A DNA stretch of 64,000 nt from Fusobacteriota bacterium (lineage in GTDB: Bacteria; Bacillota; TC1): the NCBI GenBank assembly GCA_009773805.1, contig WTXA01000001.1, forward strand, positions 310,001-374,000, in the 5' to 3' direction. Position 1 is the first letter of the stretch, and the number at the start of each line of letters is the position of its first letter. The translations under genes and the position numbers were made by a program. The notes under the pieces were generated by a model. The model had not been told where the DNA came from and ran no database searches. It saw only the letters and a list, made by a program, of their open reading frames with translations. Shown one piece after another: positions 48,790 to 52,997 of the stretch.

Positions 48790-49317
48790 TTAATATTTCT
48801 GATGATCTAAACCCTTATTCAATCTAATCCTTCTCATAAACAACTTAGAAAACCAAAACAACAAAACACTAACAAAACCAGCCTCAACAATAATAACCAT
48901 TGCATAAACAAAAACGTTATTATTAAGAACATTCATCATAATAGAATTTATACGAGTAAGAAAAACCAAATCAGTCAAAACAATACCCAAATAAAACAAA
49001 AAACCAACAGACAAAGTAAGCAACAACAAAGAACCCAAAGCCCTAAATTTATTAACCAGAATAACCCTTAAAATAGCAGCAATAAAACAATAAGCAATAA
49101 CAAAAAACACCTGAACACTAAAAAACAAAGCCGTAAACAAAATCACAGTACCATAAAAAACCATTCTTTCCTTAAAATTACTTTTAAAAGAAAAAATCAA
49201 TAAAGTAAGAGGAACAAAAAGAGCATTCAAAATATTAGTAGGCCCCTTAAACAATAAGAACAAAATATAAACAATAGCCAAAGCCAAAATATTATAAACA
49301 AAAATATTAAGTCTCAT
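48790..49317 (-). CDS. Small polytopic membrane protein, unknown function
   Basis: I do not recognise the family. The 175 residues form about six hydrophobic segments with a positively charged C-terminus (FMRRIRLNKG). Size and topology resemble ECF-transporter S components or MreD-like proteins, but no diagnostic motif is seen. The ATG at 49317 follows AAAGGTGGTATAC; a GTG at 49326 is less likely. It starts 11 bases after the diguanylate cyclase gene and is probably the third gene of that operon. Its coding strand is strongly T/G-rich, with third positions mostly T or G, unlike the cobalamin gene of the same operon. Confidence 0.75.
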   Translation of the reverse strand: MRLNIFVYNILALAIVYILFLLFKGPTNILNALFVPLTLLIFSFKSNFKERMVFYGTVILFTALFFSVQVFFVIAYCFIAAILRVILVNKFRALGSLLLLTLSVGFLFYLGIVLTDLVFLTRINSIMMNVLNNNVFVYAMVIIVEAGFVSVLLFWFSKLFMRRIRLNKGLDHQKY

Positions 49318-49328
49318 GTATACCACCT

Positions 49329-50318
49329 TTATTTATTAGAATTTTTATAAGAAAACATTTTATTTTTACCACTCTTTTTAGCCTTATACATAGCAACATC
49401 AGCAAATTCAATAAGCTCATATATTTCCTTAGTATCTCTACCATAGACAGAAATCCCAGCACTAAATGAAAAATCAAGTTGAACATCTTTAATAGCAAAT
49501 TGCCTATTCATAATATTATCCTTAATGATTTTCCAATAATTATCCTTATAAGTTTCATCAACAACATCAAGACCATAAGTAAATAAACCAAACTCATCAC
49601 CTGCGATCCTTAGATGAATAGTATTTTCAATAGGTAACCCCTTTAATCTATTAGCGAATTCAATTAAATACTCATCACCAACATTATGACCATAAGTATC
49701 ATTAACACTTTTAAAATCATCAATATCAATAAACATAAAAACACCTAATTTATTAGGATTATCCTCAATCATCTTAGCAATTTCATCCCTATATTGGTAC
49801 TTACTTACTAGTCCAGTTAAAGCATCTTTTACCAACCTATTATTCAAAACAAAATTAAGCTCATTTAGTTGACTATTTTTCTTTTCCAATTGTCTTTCGG
49901 CAACAACTAATTGACTATTCAAAATTTGAATCTTTTCAAAATTATATCTTATAGATTCTGTTGTCCCAAATTTATCCTCTTCACAACTTTCTTTAAAAAC
50001 CATCATGAATCGCTTAATAACTCTTACATATTCATCAGTCATACTTTTAAAATCACTACAACCAAAAACCAATAACCTTTTATCTTTTCTTCTTAAGAAT
50101 ATAGTTTGGGCTTTATTATAATCATTAAAATGATATTCATTTTTTGATATATATATATCTTTGTCAACCTTTTTCAAGTCCTCTTCTAATTGTAGAATAT
50201 CTTCTTCAATGATCAAAGATTTTAAATCCTTATTTCCTTGCATTATAAGGTAAACAGGATCACTCCATTTAACCTCTATAATATTAAATTCATCATCGAT
50301 GATTGCTAAAAAGCTCAT
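49329..50318 (-). CDS. Diguanylate cyclase (GGDEF domain)
   Basis: The enzyme would make cyclic di-GMP. The first about 110 residues form a small sensory-like domain I cannot name with confidence (PAS-like length, no clear motif). A coiled segment (about 125-158) leads to the GGDEF domain (about 162-325) with DALTGL, the metal and substrate block DDFKSVNDTYGHNVGDEYL and the active-site loop RIAGDEF (AGDEF in place of GGDEF, a variant known in active cyclases). The inhibitory RxxD site upstream of the loop is absent, so product inhibition at that site is not expected. It begins one base after the cobalamin-protein stop with GGAGAAATAGT ahead. Confidence 0.92.
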   Translation of the reverse strand: MSFLAIIDDEFNIIEVKWSDPVYLIMQGNKDLKSLIIEEDILQLEEDLKKVDKDIYISKNEYHFNDYNKAQTIFLRRKDKRLLVFGCSDFKSMTDEYVRVIKRFMMVFKESCEEDKFGTTESIRYNFEKIQILNSQLVVAERQLEKKNSQLNELNFVLNNRLVKDALTGLVSKYQYRDEIAKMIEDNPNKLGVFMFIDIDDFKSVNDTYGHNVGDEYLIEFANRLKGLPIENTIHLRIAGDEFGLFTYGLDVVDETYKDNYWKIIKDNIMNRQFAIKDVQLDFSFSAGISVYGRDTKEIYELIEFADVAMYKAKKSGKNKMFSYKNSNK

Positions 50319-50319
50319 A

Positions 50320-51396
50320 CTATTTCTCCATTTTTTTAATAATATTAATTTCCGCCCACTGTACTAATTCCAATGCATTATCTGTTGAAATATCCACTTC
50401 CCATTTCTTCCATAATTCAGCACTAGAATTAAAACCTCTGCCACCTACTGCAATTTTTGAGTTTATGTTTTTTGCTTTAATTGCTTTTACCAGATCATGG
50501 CATATTGTTAGGTGTTGAGGCATTGTAACTGACAAAGCTATTAAATCCGGTTTGTTTTCTTCAATAGCTTTTAGAACAAATTCATTAGGAACTGCTGCAC
50601 CTAAATAAATACTGTCCCATCCATAAAACTCGAAAAGATCCGAAATCATTCTAGCTCCCATTTCATGAAGTTCACTACCAACAGTACAGGTAAGTATTTT
50701 TGCACCTTTTTTAGCAGAGCTGAAAATCAATGGATAAAATTGAGATAAAATCACTTGAGTTGTTGAGGTGCAATAATGTTCCTTGTCTACAGAAATCTCT
50801 TGCCTTTGCCATAAATTACCAACTTCATGCATCACCTCTTGTAAAATATCTATGTAGATTTCTTCTAAGGTATATCCTGTCTTAATAAGACTTTCTACAA
50901 ACTTATATGCACCTTGAGTATCATAATTCAAAAGATAATCAAGATATTTTTTATTTACATCAATATATTTACTTAATTGAAATTTATTTGATTCATTAAA
51001 CATAATTGCTTCTTTTTTAGTTAGTTCTATTGCATCCTTTATATATTGATCAGCTTTCTTGGCTTCTGCTTCGAGTAAAACATTAGAAAGTGAATCATTT
51101 AGGATTTGATAATGCATTATCATTTGATCTTTAATTCTATCTCTACTTAAGTCTTTCATTATGTAACATAACAATTGATATATCCAAATGGCATAATCAC
51201 CAAAGATTTTAGAATCTTCAAACTCAATTGCCGTATCTAAATAACTTAGATTAATTAATATATCCTCATACATTAATTTTTTTCTATGATCATCATATTC
51301 TTTATCTAGTTTGGGATCATTTTCAAATTGCTTATCAAAGACTTTTCTAGCTATACTTACTAATTTAGTGTCTTGGTTACTCATTAATAAACTCAT
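50320..51396 (-). CDS. Cobalamin-binding sensor protein with CarH-type W-x9-EH motif
   Basis: The last about 130 residues are a Rossmann-like B12-binding domain: ELHEMG (242-247, histidine 244 as the lower cobalt ligand, a variant of DxHxxG), SVTMP (289-293) and GGRGF (318-322). Before it a helical bundle (about 145-225) carries W196, E206 and H207 spaced exactly as W-x9-EH, the motif that covers the upper face of adenosylcobalamin in CarH photoreceptors. The N-terminal 140 residues are helical and unrecognised; there is no MerR DNA-binding domain. An output through the adjacent diguanylate cyclase is inferred. The ATG follows GGAGGTTGAT. Confidence 0.88.
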   Translation of the reverse strand: MSLLMSNQDTKLVSIARKVFDKQFENDPKLDKEYDDHRKKLMYEDILINLSYLDTAIEFEDSKIFGDYAIWIYQLLCYIMKDLSRDRIKDQMIMHYQILNDSLSNVLLEAEAKKADQYIKDAIELTKKEAIMFNESNKFQLSKYIDVNKKYLDYLLNYDTQGAYKFVESLIKTGYTLEEIYIDILQEVMHEVGNLWQRQEISVDKEHYCTSTTQVILSQFYPLIFSSAKKGAKILTCTVGSELHEMGARMISDLFEFYGWDSIYLGAAVPNEFVLKAIEENKPDLIALSVTMPQHLTICHDLVKAIKAKNINSKIAVGGRGFNSSAELWKKWEVDISTDNALELVQWAEINIIKKMEK

Positions 51397-51425: not shown

Positions 51426-51454
51426 ATTATAGCACTTATTTCTTATATATTTAA
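51426..51454 (-). promoter_or_regulatory. Promoter of the cobalamin/GGDEF operon
   Basis: TATAAT at 51431-51426 (minus) is preceded by TGC, an extended -10. The -35 at 17 bases (TTAAAT) is weak and falls inside the palindrome at 51442-51467, as expected of a regulated promoter. Confidence 0.6.
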
Positions 51455-51467
51455 AAAAATATATAAG
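51442..51467. promoter_or_regulatory. Perfect 10-bp inverted repeat (candidate operator)
   Basis: CTTATATATT and AATATATAAG flank a 6-base centre, overlapping the -35 region of the cobalamin/GGDEF operon. No nearby gene encodes an obvious DNA-binding protein, so the regulator is unknown. The arms are AT-only apart from the outer base pairs, which raises the chance that this is coincidental. Confidence 0.45.
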
Positions 51468-52271: not shown

Positions 52272-52997
52272 CTAAGCAAAAGTTAAACCCTGACTATGAG
52301 TCTTACAGGCAGCCACCATAGCAGCAAACCCCTCAATATTTCTCGTCTGTATCATAACCTTCCCTTGACCACTAAACTCATTAACAAAACCTTCACCAGT
52401 AGCAAAACCAAAGATACCAGAAGCAACCCTGATTTCATACTTCAAAGAACTCTCCCAAGCAAGAACATGCCTATTATCAACTACAAACTTATTAGTCCCA
52501 TCAAGCTCTACTTCAATAGTATCACCATAACAACTAATCAACATACTACCCTCACCAGAAGTCTCCATAACAAAAAGACCACCAGTACCACCAAAAACAG
52601 CCTTACCTAAAGACTGCCTCTTCATACAATACTCAACTGATTTATCACAAGCCAAAAAAACGCCATCATTTAAAAACCACTGTTTACTACCAATAACCAA
52701 TTCCTTAATAGCACCAATTGAAGGAGGAGCAATATTAATCTCACCATCATCAGAAGAACTCTTCACAACAGTAACAAAAAAACTCTCACCACTAACAACC
52801 GACTTAGCAACAGACTTCAACATATTGCCCAAAACAGAAATACTTTTATTGCTACTATTCATCCTACCCTCTAAAGTAACATTACCATTATGGTAAACCA
52901 TAGAGCCTCTTTCTATCTTAACTTCCTCATCCTTAGTCAACTGTATAGTTACTAAAGCAAAAGGTCCATTATTACTTAATTGATACTTCATTCTCAT
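52272..52997 (-). CDS. AIM24/TIGR00266-family protein
   Basis: The 241-residue beta-rich protein matches the AIM24 pattern: FALVTIQLTKDEEVKIERGSM at the start, GLFVMETSGEGSMLISCYG in the middle and the FVNEFSGQGKVMIQTRN block at the C-terminus. The family is related to a yeast mitochondrial protein and to tail-like beta-helix folds; its bacterial role is unknown. It is a single-gene unit with its own terminator. Codons end mostly in T or G, unlike the methyltransferase next to it. The start could be M1 or M3, since both lie near a GAAGGC site. Confidence 0.88.
   Translation of the reverse strand: MRMKYQLSNNGPFALVTIQLTKDEEVKIERGSMVYHNGNVTLEGRMNSSNKSISVLGNMLKSVAKSVVSGESFFVTVVKSSSDDGEINIAPPSIGAIKELVIGSKQWFLNDGVFLACDKSVEYCMKRQSLGKAVFGGTGGLFVMETSGEGSMLISCYGDTIEVELDGTNKFVVDNRHVLAWESSLKYEIRVASGIFGFATGEGFVNEFSGQGKVMIQTRNIEGFAAMVAACKTHSQGLTFA

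Follow-up and report, generated by a model that had tools for sequence, protein, structure and literature searches.

The window, a 64-kb stretch of DNA, carries on its minus strand a three-gene operon in the order sensor, cyclase, membrane protein. The sensor gene (50320..51396) encodes a globin-B12 photocobilin-type protein of 358 aa. It is followed after 1 base by the gene for a diguanylate cyclase-type effector of 329 aa (49329..50318) and, 11 bases further on, by that for a membrane protein of 175 aa belonging to an unnamed family (48790..49317; an in-frame GTG at 49326 is a possible alternative start). These coordinates agree with the spacing and the single operon described in the first-pass annotation. 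A possible extended -10 promoter, TTTAAA-18-TATAAT with a TG preceding the second hexamer, lies upstream of the sensor on the same strand (51426..51455); it is a weak candidate, as matches of this kind are no commoner here than in shuffled sequence. Also upstream of the operon is a gene for an AIM24-family protein (window 52272-52997; PF01987, E 6e-56). No cobalamin riboswitch was found within the 64-kb window.

The sensor contains a B12-binding_2 helical cap (PF02607, aa 149-218, 50743..50952, minus strand; Pfam E 5e-15) and a B12-binding Rossmann domain (PF02310, aa 233-334, 50395..50700, minus strand; Pfam E 1e-20). The cap bears the motif W196-x9-E206-H207 (W196 at 50809-50811, E206-H207 at 50776-50781), whose residues align with W61, E71 and H72 of the photocobilin SasPcob. 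Within the Rossmann domain the motif E242-x-H244-x-x-G247 is present as E242-L-H244-E-M-G247, and H244 (50665-50667) is expected to be the lower cobalt ligand. The residue following W196 is Gln, as in SasPcob, and in most members of the near clade it is His, as at His132 of CarH. By homology, these domains and motifs back the earlier claim that the sensor binds cobalamin.

The same features had been read as those of a CarH-type protein stripped of its DNA-binding domain. CarH of Thermus thermophilus, an AdoCbl- and light-dependent repressor, does share the helical cap, the Rossmann domain and the W-x9-EH and ExHxxG motifs, and a Pfam search found no DNA-binding domain, MerR-type or other, in the sensor. 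CarH as the nearest relative did not stand: the NCBIfam CarH model scores 56.7 on the sensor against a cut-off of 400, the best PDB sequence matches are the photocobilins 8j2w, 8j2x and 8j2y, and the sensor has a globin domain with a bilin pocket, which places photocobilins nearer than CarH. Reading the protein as CarH without its HTH was dropped once this N-terminal domain emerged. In contrast to CarH, the sensor would act via a partner protein. Its AlphaFold2 model is confident (pLDDT 93.4), and Foldseek again gives 8j2w as the best match, with approximately 200 columns aligned, about what the B12 module alone would fill. A reversed domain order would lead one to expect a fold alignment confined to this module.

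The N-terminal ~140 aa, overlooked in the first-pass annotation, were assigned by profile search and conservation as a photoglobin (phycobiliprotein-like) domain (aa 10-143, 50968..51369, minus strand). The N-terminal domain of the window protein was aligned with those of 45 homologues (A9), and the PDB was searched with the resulting profile; its top matches were the globin domain of SasPcob (E 1.2e-7) and an allophycocyanin beta chain (E 1.3e-7). The Pfam Phycobilisome family matches 28 of the 46 globin domains at a loose threshold, the window's own domain being unmatched. A second, very weak PDB alignment pairs sensor residues 32-77 with residues 251-296 of 8j2w, inside the globin domain of the latter; chain numbers in 8j2w are six lower than the published numbering, as anchored on W61, E71 and H72. 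In the alignment D45 (51262-51264) corresponds to SasPcob Asp270 and W71 (51184-51186) to SasPcob Trp296. Asp270 of SasPcob contacts biliverdin, and the equivalent residue in AbPcob is His (PMC10979010). D45 is conserved in 66 of 68 homologues and W71 in all 68, an invariance that is partly selected as W71 falls inside one of the two scan patterns, D45 being outside both. If no bilin ever bound, it would be odd for the pocket to have retained this Asp and Trp, a point against the corrinoid-status reading favoured below. As in allophycocyanin and other phycobiliproteins, the alignment includes the Asp of the C-x-R-D motif; in contrast to them, the chromophore Cys is missing (the position is Met in the window sensor and in most of its clade), a B12 module is fused and the protein is not one of light harvesting.

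By its sequence, the sensor is thus of photocobilin type and standalone, its globin preceding the B12 module. The closest known systems are the standalone SasPcob of Saccharothrix syringae and the cyclase-fused AbDPcob of Acidimicrobiaceae (PMC10979010). Shared with these are the B12 module with its W/EH and ExH motifs, the bilin-pocket globin and the link to a diguanylate cyclase; control in trans through protein-protein contact would be a further likeness. Unlike in SasPcob and AbDPcob, the globin is N-terminal, an order also mentioned in PMC10979010, and unlike in AbDPcob the cyclase is a separate gene of the operon, with a membrane protein gene behind it. A further difference from photocobilins is the Met at the phycobiliprotein Cys position, and another is that the window genome has no canonical haem oxygenase. 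An association of globin with B12 is likewise known from photoglobins and the BBAG-2 bilin-binding globins; the latter are generally associated with haem oxygenase (PMC10151467), which the sensor genomes here mostly lack.

The cyclase carries a GGDEF domain (aa 165-320, 49359..49826, minus strand; Pfam E 4e-30) in which the first Gly of the A-site is replaced, giving AGDEF (49590-49604). No RxxD I-site is present and PIEN occupies the equivalent place, bearing out the earlier description of a cyclase free of this inhibitory site. Ahead of the domain, alignment revealed a conserved coil linker (aa 122-158, 49845..49955, minus strand) of the form LNxxL-x4-R-x-L-x-K-x-N; the signature common to the effectors is LNNEL-x4-R-x-L-x-K-x-N. 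Instead of a docking site, this coil could simply be a helical linker of a generic sort.

To place the operon among its homologues we used 80 loci retained from a pattern scan of genome contigs, of which the linker formed no part. A coil-bearing effector adjoins the sensor in all 80, directly downstream in 77; the linker ORF overlaps the sensor in L057 and L094 and comes before it in L056. The sole further linker ORF in the flanks of the 80 loci follows the first effector of L100 (L100 7941-9161). Such constancy supports as likely the earlier proposal that the sensor controls the neighbouring cyclase post-translationally. Among 62 effectors, HATPase was matched in 43, HisKA in 40, GGDEF in 13, EAL in two and SpoIIE in one, so the outputs appear interchangeable and are mostly histidine kinases, the window's being GGDEF. 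Across 300 related genomes the globin profile was found in 10, the linker profile in 10 and both in eight (hypergeometric p = 1.4e-12, ignoring relatedness). In the sensor tree the window protein falls in a Bacillota/Spirochaetota clade of 15 rows (support 100/100) with mostly GGDEF outputs, while a larger separate clade has mostly kinase outputs; output labels follow simple motif rules, and the rows L034 and L035, labelled 'other', have GGDEF-type partners by profile. A literature search for a B12-to-c-di-GMP link and for B12-domain kinases found neither.

The third protein is hydrophobic, with about 5-6 helices. It had been likened to an ECF S-component or MreD; Pfam gave no match to these or to any other family and there was no NCBIfam or PDB sequence match, leaving that suggestion unsupported, and the AlphaFold2 model, from 4 sequences, is of low confidence (pLDDT 58.9). 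Its profile (A3) matches five of the 300 genomes (G000, the window genome, with G004, G007, G032 and G003), four of which carry the sensor. The fifth, G003, retains only a decayed remnant of the membrane protein gene, and the 12 kb read there contain neither sensor nor cyclase. Intact triads are present in the window genome, G004, G007 and the record of L031; the gene also follows the cyclase in L030, where it runs off the contig end. In G032 the whole triad is decayed, with several in-frame stops (L028, C164:14686-16746). Conservation of the triad in related genomes therefore held, the genes remaining together. G001, G005, G006 and G008 lack sensor, cyclase and membrane protein alike, which suggests that the unit is gained or lost as a whole. 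No membrane protein was found beside the spirochaete homologues, and it is thus an accessory rather than a core part.

Domain content, residue conservation, pairing and co-inheritance are the observed basis on which we regard the operon as a trans-acting photocobilin-type signalling unit that passes a B12 input to c-di-GMP via the coil, with a probability of about 0.6. In the mechanism that we infer, which supplies the ligand, the docking site, the direction of control and the role of the membrane protein, the helical cap and the Rossmann domain would hold a cobalamin between them, and the phycobiliprotein-like globin would pack against it. Changes in the upper ligand or the supply of cobalamin would alter the sensor, which would dock on the PAS-like/coil N-terminal region of the adjoining cyclase; the coil would relay the change to the GGDEF domain and shift the level of cyclic di-GMP. 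The membrane protein probably anchors the sensor-cyclase pair at the membrane or works with it. The presumed direction of control is borrowed from AbDPcob, in which AdoCbl lowers cyclase activity and light raises it more than tenfold, and photocobilin domains, once separated, still act on the separated cyclase (PMC10979010).

As for the input, cobalamin riboswitches precede a btuFCD-cobT-cobU-cobS-like operon and nrdDG-like genes in the window genome, which is thereby predicted to carry riboswitch-controlled B12 import and salvage and an anaerobic ribonucleotide reductase; the CobU/CobS/CobT-like names were assigned by reading the sequences rather than by family search. The host is probably anaerobic. 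Canonical haem oxygenase (PF01126), the one haem-cleaving family searched for genome-wide, is present in four of 53 sensor genomes and absent from 49, with none in the window genome, G004 or G007. The riboswitch regulon and this absence tilt the input towards B12 over light: corrinoid status would be the likelier signal in the window organism, ahead of biliverdin-assisted light sensing, with light optional and, as the input here, doubtful. Neither CobA- nor PduO-type adenosyltransferases were found in the same three genomes, a counterpoint to any AdoCbl-based reading. The stricter argument that there can be no AdoCbl for want of CobA and PduO is weakened by the riboswitches and the CobU/CobS/CobT-like genes. 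The window genome has its riboswitch-nrdD pair away from the triad (L148:17259-17423); in the sister genome G004 the next element downstream of the triad is a cobalamin riboswitch (L029:8688-8888), which in turn precedes an nrdD-like gene.

A more specific form of the B12 reading, which we put forward tentatively, is an oxygen-independent photocobilin of anaerobes. Its globin would do without biliverdin, acting as a structural lid or else binding a different linear tetrapyrrole, and the unit would couple corrinoid status to c-di-GMP through a coil-docked effector, with a new membrane protein. If true, B12 sensing and not light sensing would be the role of this branch of the family. The leading rival is a true light receptor, in which AdoCbl photolysis, possibly aided by a bilin that is imported or made in an unconventional way, would set c-di-GMP as in AbDPcob. 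Every B12 photoreceptor motif is kept, as are D45 and W71, cyclase activation by light is already published for AbDPcob, and the green-light response of that protein needs no biliverdin (PMC10979010). We nevertheless consider this unlikely here: with no canonical haem oxygenase found, biliverdin is hardly to be expected, and a lit habitat is suggested neither by the genes for anaerobic ribonucleotide reductase nor by the titles of some related records (groundwater series, gut isolate), habitat being taken from names only.

The partner could also be a catalytically weak, cyclase-like adaptor that binds c-di-GMP or GTP, leaving the membrane protein to provide the real output. An AGDEF or SGDEF A-site is found in most near GGDEF-type relatives, and conservation between the window and G007 is higher for the membrane protein (35%) than for the cyclase (24%). 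The A-site still has its D/E and F, the fold score for GGDEF is likewise intact, and the spirochaete homologues have no adjoining membrane protein; this reading is improbable. A role for the sensor in carrying corrinoid for a methyltransferase, in place of sensing, is scarcely credible: the NCBIfam models MtgC, MtbC and MtaC match far under their cut-offs, set against a globin domain, signalling effectors paired in 80 of 80 loci and the W-x9-EH upper-face motif.

Photoglobins are reportedly associated with signalling domains, according to the survey of Schneider et al. 2022. The coil pairing, the membrane-protein family and the haem-oxygenase gap are new as far as the literature searched shows, although that survey may cover part of this. 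Photocobilins, both domain orders and control of a cyclase are already published (PMC10979010). Trans control by photocobilins has so far been demonstrated with separated or unrelated parts, and the operon offers a natural split sensor-enzyme pair for testing it. The coil signature may flag cognate effectors across bacteria and archaea. What ligands such globins had before bilins were made with oxygen is a question raised in PMC10151467, and it is one to which phycobiliprotein-like globins that keep the Asp in genomes lacking haem oxygenase are relevant.

An ABM-family gene (IsdG/HmoA-like, a possible haem-cleaving monooxygenase) lies at the sensor in 17 of the 80 loci, usually directly upstream and mostly in aerobic-looking lineages (L076:5644-5943, L055:5668-5967, L064:5517-5816 and 14 more); all three such genes checked match PF03992. 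The bilin Cys is commoner at these loci (10/14, versus 7/54 elsewhere; p 4e-5, ignoring relatedness), and the ABM gene could encode a bilin-making enzyme in those lineages. The c-di-GMP network of the window genome (1.68 Mb) comprises 17 GGDEF and four EAL matches, with no PilZ receptor found in this genome, and includes a run of GGDEF genes at C2:97452-142424.
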